64,000 nucleotides of DNA, taken from positions 186,001 to 250,000 of the forward strand of contig CAJTFS010000001.1 of NCBI GenBank assembly GCA_910575495.1, written 5' to 3'. Source of the DNA: Bacteroidales bacterium. GTDB lineage: Bacteria > Bacteroidota > Bacteroidia > Bacteroidales > Rikenellaceae. The first letter of the stretch is position 1. Every line of letters starts with the position of its first letter. The position numbers and the translations under genes were made by a program. Below the pieces are notes generated by a model. The model was given only the letters and a program-made list of their open reading frames with translations. It did not search any database and was not told where the DNA came from. This document shows positions 1-51,846 of this stretch, piece after piece.

Positions 1-332
1 CGCCGCTCTACTCGGCCAAGAAAATCGCCGGGATGCGGGCCTACGAACTGGCCCGGGCGGGCGAGACGACCGAGACGGTGGAGCTGCGCAAGGCACTGAT
101 AACCATCTACGAATCCGAATTGCAGGAGTACGATCTGCCGCGCATCCGCATCCGGGTGCGATGCAGCAAGGGCACCTACATCCGCTCGCTGGCGCGCGAG
201 ATAGGCGAAGCGCTCGGCAGCGGCGCCCATCTGACCTCGCTGCGCCGCACGCGAAGCGGCGGATTCACGGCCGGCCAGGCGTGGCAACTGGACGAATTTC
301 TGAAAAAGCTACAGCAAAGTGAAACAAAATAA
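1..332 (+). CDS. truB: tRNA pseudouridine(55) synthase TruB, C-terminal part
   Basis: This enzyme makes pseudouridine 55 in the T-loop of tRNAs. Only the last 109 or so residues lie in the window, read in frame from base 3. The visible part starts PLYSAKKIAGMRAYELAR and contains KGTYIRSLAREIG, the conserved TruB motif near the end of the catalytic fold. The catalytic aspartate lies upstream of the window. The ATG at base 33 is internal and is not the start. The gene is followed by queA on the same strand, 63 bases on, so both tRNA-modification genes are probably co-transcribed. The family call is firm and only the N-terminus is missing. Confidence 0.93.
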   Translation, partial: PLYSAKKIAGMRAYELARAGETTETVELRKALITIYESELQEYDLPRIRIRVRCSKGTYIRSLAREIGEALGSGAHLTSLRRTRSGGFTAGQAWQLDEFLKKLQQSETK

Positions 333-48610: not shown

Positions 48611-48958
48611 TCAGCTGCCGGCTTTCTTGCAGCGGTAACCGCTGCGGGTCAGAAGATCGACGACCCGGTCGCGGTGATCGCCCTGGATGATGATTTCACC
48701 CTCCTTGGCAGCCCCGCCGACGCCGCACCGGGTCTTCAACAAACGCGCCAGAGCCTGCAGGTCGTCGTCGCGGCCCACGAAACCGCGCACGAGCGTGACG
48801 ACCTTGCCGCCCCGCTGCTTGCGGTCGAGCCACACGCGCAGCTCCTGCCGCTCGGGAGCGAGCGTCTCGGGCTCCTCGTCGTGCCGGGTCGTATATGCGA
48901 AGTCGGGATCGGTCGAATAGACCATTCCGAGCCGCGATTTCCAGTCGTTGTCAGCCAT
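48611..48958 (-). CDS. SUI1/eIF1-like translation factor (YciH family)
   Basis: The 115-residue protein starts at ATG 48958 (MADNDWKSRLGMVYSTD). The open frame extends upstream without homology. It matches the SUI1/YciH fold with KQRGGKVVTLVRGFVG (about 47-62), LKTRCGVGGAAKEGEIIIQG (74-93) and GDHRDRVVDLL. Bacterial members resemble eIF1 and may influence start-codon selection, although their role in bacteria is not settled. The leader contains CTTTTCACTTTTCACCTT repeats. The large metallopeptidase-barrel gene follows 2 bases after its stop. Confidence 0.92.
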   Translation of the reverse strand: MADNDWKSRLGMVYSTDPDFAYTTRHDEEPETLAPERQELRVWLDRKQRGGKVVTLVRGFVGRDDDLQALARLLKTRCGVGGAAKEGEIIIQGDHRDRVVDLLTRSGYRCKKAGS

Positions 48959-49194: not shown

Positions 49195-49226
49195 TTTGCG
49201 CAAAAATACGAAAATATTTATCTTCG
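49195..49226 (+). promoter_or_regulatory. Promoter almost abutting the DUF4435 start codon
   Basis: TTTG at 49195-49198, a 20-base spacer and TATCTTCG at 49219-49226 (one mismatch to the -7 consensus). The ATG is at 49233, only 6 bases after the box, so transcription should begin at or within a few bases of the start codon. Confidence 0.6.
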
Positions 49227-49232
49227 CATACG

Positions 49233-50315
49233 ATGAAAGCCAAGAAGCACGAAATAAATCTTTCCCGCCGCACGCCGGAATCCGACCGGCTGCCGCGCCC
49301 GCTGCCGGCCGAGCCGGGGCAGCGGCTGGTGCGGGTCTTCGTCGAGGGATACGAAGACGTGGCCTTCTGGCGCGGCATCTTCGACCATTTCCGCAACCCC
49401 TACCTGCGCTTCGAGATCTCGGTGCCCGTGCGCGACGACCTGCCCAAAGGCAAGAAGGTGCTGCTGAACATGATACCCGAGTCGTGCGAGAACCTGCTGC
49501 TGTGCGTCGACTCCGACTTCGACTACCTGTTCGCCGGGCGCACGGCGCAGTCGGCCGAGGTGGCGGGCGCGCGCCACATGTTCCACACCTACGCCTACGC
49601 GACGGAAAACTACCTCTGCTACGCACCCTCGCTGCACAACGTCTGCGTCAAGGCCACGAAGAACGACACGCGCATCTTCGACTTCGTGGCTTTCATGCGC
49701 GACTACTCGTGCACGATCTACCCGCTGTTCGTGTGGTACGCCTACTCGGCCCAGCTCTCCACGGAACACGTGTTCCCGCTCATCGACTTCAAGTCGGCGG
49801 TGCGGCTGGGCTATCTGGACATCGAGGACAACGGCGCCCGCACGCTCGAATGGCTCGCCCGCAACGTGGAGAAGCGCCACCGGCTGCTGTGCCAGCGCAA
49901 TCCGAAGATGATCGAACCGATGAAAGCGTTCGAACTGCTGCTCCGCGAGCGCGGCGTGACCCCCGAGACGACCTATCTTTTCATGCACGGCCACACGCTC
50001 ATGGACAACGTGGTGATGGTGCTGCTCAACTCGGTGTGCGAGAAACTGCGGCAGCTCTCCATCGCCAAGATCAACGCGTCGAAGAAACAGGGCGTGGCCC
50101 TGCGCAACGAAATGGCCAACTACACCAACTCGCTGCGCTCGATCCGCGACGTGCTGCTCGACAACGAGAACTACACGCGCTGTCCGCTCTACAAACGGCT
50201 GCAGCGCGACATCCAGAAATACATCGTCCGCACCATCGTCGGCATGAAACGCAGCGGCGAAATCCGCGACGACTCCTACTGGAACATCATCTCGAAAATG
50301 AAAAGCCCGGAATGA
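49233..50315 (+). CDS. DUF4435 protein with TOPRIM-like motifs
   Basis: The 360-residue protein starts at ATG 49233 (MKAKKHEINLSRRTPESDRL). Further upstream the frame is open but runs through repeats. RVFVEGYEDVAFW (Glu38) and LLLCVDSDFDYLF (Asp93, Asp95, Asp97) match the Glu and DxD motifs of a TOPRIM fold, as expected for DUF4435. The C-terminal half is helical and rich in Arg and Lys. DUF4435 proteins often occur with AAA ATPases in OLD-like nuclease or defence systems. None is adjacent here. A DNA- or RNA-processing role is likely but unproven. Confidence 0.82.
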   Translation: MKAKKHEINLSRRTPESDRLPRPLPAEPGQRLVRVFVEGYEDVAFWRGIFDHFRNPYLRFEISVPVRDDLPKGKKVLLNMIPESCENLLLCVDSDFDYLFAGRTAQSAEVAGARHMFHTYAYATENYLCYAPSLHNVCVKATKNDTRIFDFVAFMRDYSCTIYPLFVWYAYSAQLSTEHVFPLIDFKSAVRLGYLDIEDNGARTLEWLARNVEKRHRLLCQRNPKMIEPMKAFELLLRERGVTPETTYLFMHGHTLMDNVVMVLLNSVCEKLRQLSIAKINASKKQGVALRNEMANYTNSLRSIRDVLLDNENYTRCPLYKRLQRDIQKYIVRTIVGMKRSGEIRDDSYWNIISKMKSPE

Positions 50316-50349: not shown

Positions 50350-50389
50350 AAGCCGCAGAAAACAATGCGATCCATGTTTTCTGCGGCTT
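50350..50389. terminator. Bidirectional terminator between DUF4435 and lysC
   Basis: AAGCCGCAGAAAAC pairs perfectly with GTTTTCTGCGGCTT across a 12-base loop, with AAAAAG before it and TTCGATTCTTC after it. It separates the rightward DUF4435 gene from the leftward lysC. Confidence 0.85.
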
Positions 50390-50571: not shown

Positions 50572-51846
50572 TTATTTACTCTGCTCGGGCGCCTCGGCTT
50601 TCCGCACGACGCGAACCGTCGACTGGGTGGCCTGGCGGATGAAGACGCGGGGGCCGGAGGCGTAGTGCTGCCACAGCTCGTCGGTATAACCGCGGACGGT
50701 CAGCAGCTCCATCCGCTCGATCTTCATGACGTCGAAACCCTCCTCGCGCAGCGCGGCGACGGCCTGGTCGACATGCCACGAATCGTCGATGCAGAGACTC
50801 AGATTGACGGCCGAGTTGTGGATCAGGTTGGTCTTGATGCGATAGCGCTCCAACAACGAGAAGATGGCGGCGAACTTCTCCTCCAGGACGAACGAAAAGT
50901 CGCGCGAACGGATCGTGAGCAGAACCTGATCCTTTTTGAGAATCAGGATCGGAACCTCGACGGGCGCCGACACGCCGCGGATGACGGTGCCGGGCTTGCG
51001 CTTGTCGCCGAACGGCCGCACGTAGAGCGGGATGTTGCTGTTCTGCAAGGGCTTGATGGTGCGCGGATGGATGATCTGCGCCCCGCTGTAAGCCAGTTCG
51101 ATGGTGTCCAGATAGTTGAGCTCGGCGATCTGCACGGCGTCGGGGAAAATCTTGGGATCGGCGTTGAGCACGCCGTCGACATCCTTCCACACCGCCATCG
51201 ACTCGGCCCCGAGGATGTTGGCCGCCACGGCCGCCGAATAGTCGGAGCCCTCGCGTCCGAGGGTCGTGGTCGTGCCGTCGGGAGCTCCGCCGATGAAGCC
51301 CTGTCCCACGAAAACACGCTCCGGGCGCCCCTCCACCTCGGCCCGCAGGCGCGGAGCAGAAGCGGCCAAGTCGACCTCAGCGTCCTTGTGCCGCTGCTCG
51401 GTGACCAGCGCCCGGCGCATGTCGACCCAGCGGTTGGGGACCCCCGCATAGGCCAGGTATTCGGAGATGATGCTCGTGGAGATCAGCTCGCCGAAAGCCA
51501 CGATGCGGTCGTACCACAGCTCGGCATCCTCCTCGCGGCAGACACCCTCGGCGGCCGTCCGTTCGAGCTCGGCAAAGAACGCTTCGACGCGCTCGAGCTG
51601 CGTGGGACCGTGCCACAGATCGTCGACGATCGCGGCATGGCAGGCACGCAGGGCGGCGACCTCCTCCAGCGCCCCGGTGCGATCGCCGCGCTGCAAGCCG
51701 GCGAAAACGCGCTCCAAAGCGTTGGTCGTCTTGCCCATGGCCGAGACGACGATGAACAGATCGCGTTCGTCGCCTATGATCTTCAGCAGGTTGCGCACGC
51801 CGTCGGCATTGCGCACCGAAGCTCCTCCGAATTTGTAGACCTTCAT
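50572..51846 (-). CDS. lysC: Aspartate kinase
   Basis: First step of the Lys/Thr/Met/diaminopimelate pathway: phosphorylation of aspartate. It has 424 residues from ATG 51846 (MKVYKFGGASVRNADGVRNL), the family start motif KFGG. Other motifs are VSAMGKTTNALE, FGELISTSII and GREGSDYSAAVAANILGA in the kinase fold. Two ACT-like regulatory segments follow (ILILKKDQVLLTIRSRDFSF and VAALREEGFDV). No homoserine dehydrogenase is fused. The prolyl oligopeptidase gene ends 7 bases upstream, so the two share a transcript. Confidence 0.95.
   Translation of the reverse strand: MKVYKFGGASVRNADGVRNLLKIIGDERDLFIVVSAMGKTTNALERVFAGLQRGDRTGALEEVAALRACHAAIVDDLWHGPTQLERVEAFFAELERTAAEGVCREEDAELWYDRIVAFGELISTSIISEYLAYAGVPNRWVDMRRALVTEQRHKDAEVDLAASAPRLRAEVEGRPERVFVGQGFIGGAPDGTTTTLGREGSDYSAAVAANILGAESMAVWKDVDGVLNADPKIFPDAVQIAELNYLDTIELAYSGAQIIHPRTIKPLQNSNIPLYVRPFGDKRKPGTVIRGVSAPVEVPILILKKDQVLLTIRSRDFSFVLEEKFAAIFSLLERYRIKTNLIHNSAVNLSLCIDDSWHVDQAVAALREEGFDVMKIERMELLTVRGYTDELWQHYASGPRVFIRQATQSTVRVVRKAEAPEQSK

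Follow-up and report, generated by a model that had tools for sequence, protein, structure and literature searches.

AriB is known as the effector of the anti-phage defence system PARIS (PMC12409363, PMC9122126). It is described as a dimeric endoribonuclease with a two-metal TOPRIM site, cutting specific tRNAs between positions 40 and 41, and the E26A variant of Escherichia coli AriB gave no cleavage products (PMC12409363). Its partner AriA holds AriB inactive and, according to the same paper, is thought to activate it; E. coli reportedly suffers no toxicity when ariA is deleted (PMC9122126) and hence tolerates AriB on its own. The published genome search for PARIS, as described in PMC9122126, required an ATPase next to or fused with the DUF4435 protein, which places solitary AriBs outside its scope. 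Here we describe such a solitary gene, located at 49233-50315 of the window (the whole stretch of DNA analysed, 64 000 nucleotides (nt) of contig CAJTFS010000001.1, from an Alistipes-like genome of the Rikenellaceae). Its product is an AriB homologue (PARIS effector type, OLD class 4) of the DUF4435/TOPRIM kind, and it very probably descends from an ancestral AriA-AriB pair that lost AriA once and kept AriB. AriB as the PARIS effector is already known; what is new is an orphan, near-universal AriB that has lost its sensor. A literature search, with most subscription papers beyond its reach, turned up no earlier account of an AriB that is solitary or core.

The protein is an AriB homologue

An original prediction, made from the sequence alone, had called a TOPRIM-like DUF4435 gene at this place. 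Its coordinates are right (the product has 360 amino acids, aa), and the call can be sharpened to AriB: the protein matches PF14491 (DUF4435) over residues 33-273 with an E-value of 1.8e-32 (113.5 bits, against a Pfam cut-off of 27), and its best match in PADLOC is the AriB model PDLC02983 (E-value 4.1e-39, 133 bits). No NCBIfam model matched the protein up to an E-value of 0.001, no linked ATPase domain was found in it by Pfam, and no RNase M5 model was among its Pfam matches up to an E-value of 1 or its NCBIfam matches up to 0.001.

Sequence searches gave no meaningful relative of solved structure; structure comparison alone succeeded. The AlphaFold2 model (26 aligned sequences) has a mean predicted local distance difference test score (pLDDT) of 86.9 and a predicted template modelling score of 0.83, with only residues 1-22 below a pLDDT of 50. 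The top Foldseek match is the PARIS complex 8ux9_A (probability 1.00, with a modest E-value of 7.4e-3). A second structure comparison gave 8v46_D (Z 10.4, 239 residues, root-mean-square deviation 6.3) and 8ux9_A (Z 10.3), both from the AriA-AriB/PARIS complex and with 238-239 residues aligned, and the next unrelated structure reached only Z 5.2. The model therefore has the AriB/TOPRIM fold, with about 10% sequence identity in the structural alignment to solved AriB. Its match to the TOPRIM region of OLD proteins (6njv/6njw/6njx) has Z 4.7-4.9, which is below the level that stands alone.

The positions first given for Glu38 and for the DSDFD motif (residues 93-97) are correct, and the proposed active site is indeed conserved. 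We aligned 62 family orthologues, leaving out a second copy (L054) and a locus with no match (L056). Residues invariant in all 62 include V37, E38, G39, D42, W46, K72-G73-K74, D93, D95, D97, E125, N126, G253 and H254; E38, D93 and D95 are also kept in the distant homologues compared. With this conservation and the fold of the model, both outcomes that the original prediction had named as refuting it are contradicted.

ariB-like genes across the Rikenellaceae

We surveyed 112 Rikenellaceae genomes, each at least 90% complete. An AriB match was found in 109 of them, covering all 16 genera, and 108 of these 109 genomes have a single match (G034 has two). Among named relatives of the gene, Alistipes is closest: all 80 loci carry the title Alistipes or Rikenellaceae, with a best identity of 81%. 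The reading frame is intact in the window and in all 80 named loci, and the median ratio of non-synonymous to synonymous substitution rates (dN/dS) is 0.071 (53 usable of 54 pairs). In-frame stops were flagged in some of the family matches; among the extracted loci, most of them lie beyond a shorter C-terminus, and the C-terminal ends of AriB differ in length. By its sequences and phylogeny, the ariB-like gene is a near-universal, single-copy and vertically inherited gene of this family.

Presence and loss of AriA

The original prediction noted that DUF4435 usually accompanies an ATPase, which is right; here the ATPase is missing from the whole genome and not just from the neighbourhood. No AriA is adjacent to or fused with the AriB of the window, which lies between a SUI1/YciH-type gene and an aspartate kinase gene. 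None was found in the window's own genome either (99.3% complete), where all 32 candidates were scored and the best reached 24.8 bits, against 159-217 bits for true AriAs under the same model.

Across the family we searched for AriA with a profile (A1, E-value at most 1e-12), scoring the best 21 candidates per genome. On these best candidates, 15 of the 112 genomes have a match. All 11 genomes of seven genera (g43, g44, g46, g48, g49, g50 and g53) have AriA, which serves as a positive control for the search. In the AriA-less clade, 97 of 101 genomes have no match among their best 21 candidates; of the remaining four, three have only distant ATPases (65.8-92.8 bits), and in G034 the match belongs to a separate AriA-AriB pair that was acquired.

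The ATPase gene is directly upstream of AriB in g43, g44, g46, g48 and g49 (in g43 it is interrupted by a contig end at L059, and the remainder is on another contig). Those of the upstream ATPases that were run through PADLOC are scored as AriA, with E-values from 7e-65 to 8e-55 in a set that includes relatives from other families. AriA is present and unlinked in g50 and g53: the distance to AriB is 51 kb in G162, whereas G166 and G167 have the two genes about 153 kb apart, and in G165 and G168 they are on separate contigs. PADLOC scores the unlinked genes as AriA, too (1.5e-51 and 3.4e-47). We regard these genes (L105:1501-2322 and L107:1501-2313) as halves of a split but retained pair; their neighbour is presumably a purine nucleoside phosphorylase gene.

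In the AriB tree all AriA-less genera fall into a single clade (support 0.947), and they do so in the rpoB tree as well (0.883 with one misread row, G165, and the same clade, without a support label after rerooting, with that row corrected). The sister group, g44/g48/g49, bears AriA, as do the deeper groups g43+g46 and g50+g53. The rpoB trees were built without G050a, and G118, G164 and G180 had no rpoB match, so g52 is placed in the AriB tree only; two fused AriAB proteins without a blastp match were left out of the AriB tree. Because the AriB and rpoB trees agree, a single loss of AriA with retention of AriB is indicated. The simplest history would start from an ancestral AriA-AriB pair (an ABC-type ATPase and a TOPRIM nuclease) in the Rikenellaceae ancestor; the pair became unlinked once, in g50/g53, and AriA was lost once, before g1, g42, g45, g47, g51, g52, g54, g55 and g56 radiated. 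In this lineage, which led to Alistipes and at least seven further genera, AriB would have been retained as a vertically inherited single-copy gene that has a promoter of its own and whose catalytic site did not change. We consider the ancestral pair, the single loss and the retention of AriB very probable on these trees.

G034, which belongs to the same genus as the window, carries a second complete AriA-AriB pair (L054:2173-3748, contig C34) that groups inside Bacteroidaceae in the tree, as expected of a horizontal acquisition. It keeps its orphan AriB (L055) beside the acquired pair.

Changes in AriB without AriA

AriB evolves at an equal pace with and without AriA (the AriB/rpoB rate is 4.19 for genera with AriA and 3.99 for those without), and its catalytic residues are unchanged. 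The idea of a decaying PARIS remnant heading to loss would fit the missing partner and the altered N-terminus, but is hardly credible, as it is contradicted by this equal rate, by the intact frames of the window and the 80 named loci, by the dN/dS of 0.07 and by the invariant catalytic site.

Five positions (5, 15, 17, 20 and 85) are conserved in the AriA-paired AriBs (11 from Rikenellaceae and seven of the Bacteroidaceae type) and lost in 28 AriA-less ones; H118, R305 and E312 are newly conserved in the AriA-less clade. The N-terminal motif L..N[IL][ST]S.Y..A is present in 11/11 and 7/7 of the AriA-paired sequences, those with an unlinked AriA included. None of the 28 AriA-less sequences and none of 81 others (the window and named Alistipes) has it; shuffled sequences gave 20 hits out of 5600. 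Among 20 further Bacteroidaceae loci, AriA is adjacent in all 20 by BLAST, and 18 have the motif by the strict pattern. A Klebsiella plasmid carries an AriA-AriB pair without it, so the motif marks a Bacteroidales subgroup and not PARIS as a whole. The loss of the motif along with AriA, a single evolutionary event, suggests that the N-terminal segment was probably the contact with AriA.

Possible roles of the orphan AriB

Because nearly the whole family has kept the gene, mostly without the sensor, it probably has a different everyday role. We hold with modest confidence that the orphan AriB, left over from a pair that lost AriA, is still a metal-dependent endoribonuclease and has a conserved, AriA-independent cellular role; taken by itself, such a role of the Alistipes AriB is about an even call. 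By analogy with E. coli AriB, the Alistipes protein may still cleave RNA internally in a Mg2+-dependent manner, with tRNA or another structured RNA as its substrate. Freed from the control of AriA, it would most likely serve constitutive or stress-regulated RNA processing or translation control, not phage-triggered suicide, and might be controlled through short-leader, growth-linked expression. A nucleic-acid-processing factor, one of two options in the original prediction, fits better than the other, single-gene defence, though the activity itself is only predicted. More tentatively, and somewhat short of even confidence, we propose that crown Rikenellaceae domesticated a tRNA nuclease of anti-phage origin: with the sensor ATPase and its binding segment lost, AriB would now be a constitutive or stress-regulated RNase of normal physiology, as part of a wider pattern, seen in several Bacteroidales families, in which AriA-AriB is core chromosomal and not a mobile cassette.

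Several points weigh against this account. No AriB copy was detected in three of the 112 family genomes (G048, G140 and G175). The adjacent gene for a 989-aa protein is absent from G048 and G140 as well, which suggests assembly gaps in these two; G175 has that gene, and its case is unexplained. The losses of the motif and of AriA are one evolutionary event and not a repeated correlation. If AriA activates AriB, the orphan would idle, so an additional activator must be assumed. Evasion by the cell's own tRNAs was not seen, positions 36-41 of tRNA-Lys(UUU) showing no change tied to the loss of AriA. Nothing thus points to an adjustment of the cell to a tRNase that is always on and has the specificity of the E. 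coli enzyme, so either the substrate differs or the activity is gated.

AriB might instead still be a phage-defence effector that is triggered by a signal other than AriA, either by a phage product directly or by an unrelated protein encoded elsewhere. Such a role would continue that of AriB in PARIS (PMC12409363, PMC9122126); all the catalytic residues are retained, and the pair can act in trans, with g50 and g53 keeping both genes unlinked along with the N-terminal motif. But the near-universal, single-copy and rpoB-congruent distribution is unlike that of a defence gene, and no conserved partner gene is found across the AriA-less genera. Viruses offer little for this alternative: a scan of viral contigs gave one weak relative (24% identity, with an AriA-like end just upstream in its DNA), another scan of viral sequences, queried with a distant AriB, gave none, and phage records, searched with a distant AriB in place of the window protein, gave no match. 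We consider this alternative unlikely, while preferring the AriA-independent cellular role. A lineage that gave up the sensor while strong purifying selection maintained the nuclease offers a natural experiment on what AriB does by itself. In a culturable gut genus it makes testable the activity of AriB free of AriA, the part of AriB that contacts AriA, and the change from a defence effector to a housekeeping enzyme.

Promoter, terminator and genomic context

Features of the locus are listed in Table 1. The gene had been predicted to be bounded by its own promoter and a bidirectional terminator. A sigma-70 scan upstream of the gene found no promoter, but there is a pair of boxes, TTTG and TATCTTCG, which we take to be a Bacteroidota-type promoter. 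Of the 33 same-genus loci, the window included, 22 have an exact TAnnTTTG 3-12 nt before the in-frame ATG (0.24 expected in shuffles), and 29 have it there when one mismatch is allowed (2.62 expected). The -7 box ends very near the start codon, at a distance conserved within the genus, so the transcript probably is leaderless or has a very short leader. The bidirectional terminator was borne out as well.

Table 1. Coordinates of the ariB-like gene, its parts and its surroundings in the window
Feature	Position	Strand	Remarks
SUI1/YciH-type translation factor, divergent upstream neighbour	48611..48958	-	115 aa; PF01253 E-value 3.8e-18; TIGR01158 E-value 3e-25, below its cut-off
Promoter (putative)	49195..49226	+	TTTG (49195-49198), 20 nt, TATCTTCG (49219-49226); ends 6 nt before ATG
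ariB-like gene (DUF4435/TOPRIM), without ariA	49233..50315	+	360 aa; ATG 49233, stop 50313-50315
Disordered N-terminus, codons 1-22	49233..49298	+	pLDDT <50; site of motif L..N[IL][ST]S.Y..A in AriA-paired relatives, missing here
TOPRIM-like catalytic core, about residues 31-130	49323..49622	+	strand/helix order of model; OLD TOPRIM Z 4.7-4.9
Glu38 codon	49344..49346	+	E26 of E. coli AriB by structural register (28..331 to 16..308, offset 12)
Asp93-Ser94-Asp95 codons, metal-binding motif	49509..49517	+	D93 and D95 in 62/62 orthologues
Glu125-Asn126 codons	49605..49610	+	invariant in 62/62; likewise in AriA-paired relatives and in distant homologues
Bidirectional terminator between convergent genes	50350..50389		perfect 15-nt arms 50350-50364/50375-50389; z = -3.98; T-rich tails both ways
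Aspartate kinase, convergent downstream neighbour	50572..51846	-	TIGR00657 above cut-off

Both neighbours are ordinary genes, as first described. Beyond the SUI1/YciH-type gene are genes for the large 989-aa protein (outer-membrane-type, with no family match) and a PBP1A-type penicillin-binding protein; beyond aspartate kinase are genes for an oligopeptidase B-like protein and DapD. Neighbours were taken from blast-anchored loci, as GC-rich shadow open reading frames blur automatic gene lists. The YciH-type gene adjoins ariB in all 33 same-genus loci, but it is missing in g42, g55 and four of the five g54 loci, so this translation-factor neighbour is only a weak hint of function. No gene adjoins AriB across all AriA-less genera as a conserved operon partner.

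A recently acquired, solitary defence gene among housekeeping genes would be in line with the first reading, and DUF4435 genes are often mobile elsewhere (e.g. on Klebsiella and E. coli plasmids). The gene described here, however, is not patchy, not mobile and not in a defence island; it is near-universal and vertically inherited, and single-gene defence is not supported. A recent acquisition is very improbable: it is contradicted by the family-wide presence and the constant place beside YciH within the genus, the gene tree matches that of rpoB, and the G+C content of the gene (0.61-0.64) is similar to that of its flanks. A tblastn search of plasmids gave 13 records, all below 60% identity. 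A mobile or phage origin of the gene was rejected on these plasmid records and the one weak viral relative.

AriA-AriB elsewhere in the Bacteroidales

Across the Bacteroidales, 296 genomes were sampled and 66 carry DUF4435. In one family it is present in 60 of 61 genomes and in all 16 genera; this family is Bacteroidaceae by the 99.65% match of one locus (L303) to Phocaeicola massiliensis. In two small families the fused form AriAB is found in 4/4 and 6/6 genomes (one protein is scored by PADLOC as AriAB with an E-value of 1.4e-112). These fused genes, e.g. at L125:5923-7533 and likewise at L123, L124, L126-L130, L134 and L135, encode proteins of about 520-545 aa. As the genes are near-universal in some families, AriA-AriB in Bacteroidales is often a stable part of the chromosome and not a mobile cassette, which raises the question of whether the pair in Bacteroidaceae is primarily for defence.

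One could go further and regard the Bacteroidales AriA-AriB as an ancestral regulated RNase outside defence, with PARIS as a derived mobile use of it and the Alistipes gene as a simplified form. The near-universal pair in Bacteroidaceae (with AriA adjacent in 20/20 sampled loci), the fused form in the two further families and a precedent in archaea, Cran1 (PMC12796447), would all agree with this. DUF4435 in only 66 of 296 genomes, however, is not order-wide, and defence genes may also be vertical; we find this ancestral role quite improbable.

Some other loci are of separate interest. At L109:754-2768 (G056), a gene for an AriA-like ATPase (2e-29) is immediately followed by a gene for a 289-aa protein with a weak AriB match (3e-5). 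This is possibly a divergent ATPase-nuclease defence pair, and the gene adjoining it is, we assume, HNH-like. Two loci filed as Bacteroidaceae plasmids, L308 and L309, carry an AriA-AriB pair; the flanks of L309 (meaB, a mechanosensitive channel and a TonB receptor) look chromosomal.

Relation to described systems

Other known proteins share parts of this picture. RNase M5, the TOPRIM maturase of 5S rRNA, is a precedent for a TOPRIM RNase in housekeeping, but it is a separate family by its paper's account and acts as a monomer. It does not appear among the structural matches of the window AriB, an absence that carries no weight. Archaea have a class of OLD-family proteins that is essential and serves outside defence: Cran1 of Sulfolobales (OLD class 5), as described in PMC12796447, gives the precedent for such a role, but its ATPase and TOPRIM are fused and it is ATPase-dependent, whereas the ATPase of the window AriB is gone. 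The fused AriAB proteins have the same DUF4435 domain at their C-terminus and are near-universal in the two sampled Bacteroidales families, but in them a single chain of about 540 aa holds both the ATPase and the nuclease.

A PARIS system is characterised by triggering through anti-restriction proteins of phages and by abortive infection. The AriB of PARIS and that of the window have in common the DUF4435/TOPRIM fold over about 300 residues, the catalytic glutamate (E26, here E38) and a lysine-rich stretch, K72-G-K-K75, about 34 residues after E38 and near K60/K64 of E. coli AriB (a register by count only). They differ in that the window genome has no AriA, in the operon or elsewhere, and in the disordered N-terminus without the subgroup motif. 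The window gene is near-universal in its family, whereas ariAB is reported in 5.2% of genomes (PMC9122126). Its closest relatives, the AriA-AriB pairs of Bacteroidaceae and basal Rikenellaceae, share its catalytic residues (K72/G73/K74 are common to the Bacteroidaceae pairs), but they retain both AriA, whether adjacent or, in g50 and g53, unlinked, and the N-terminal motif.
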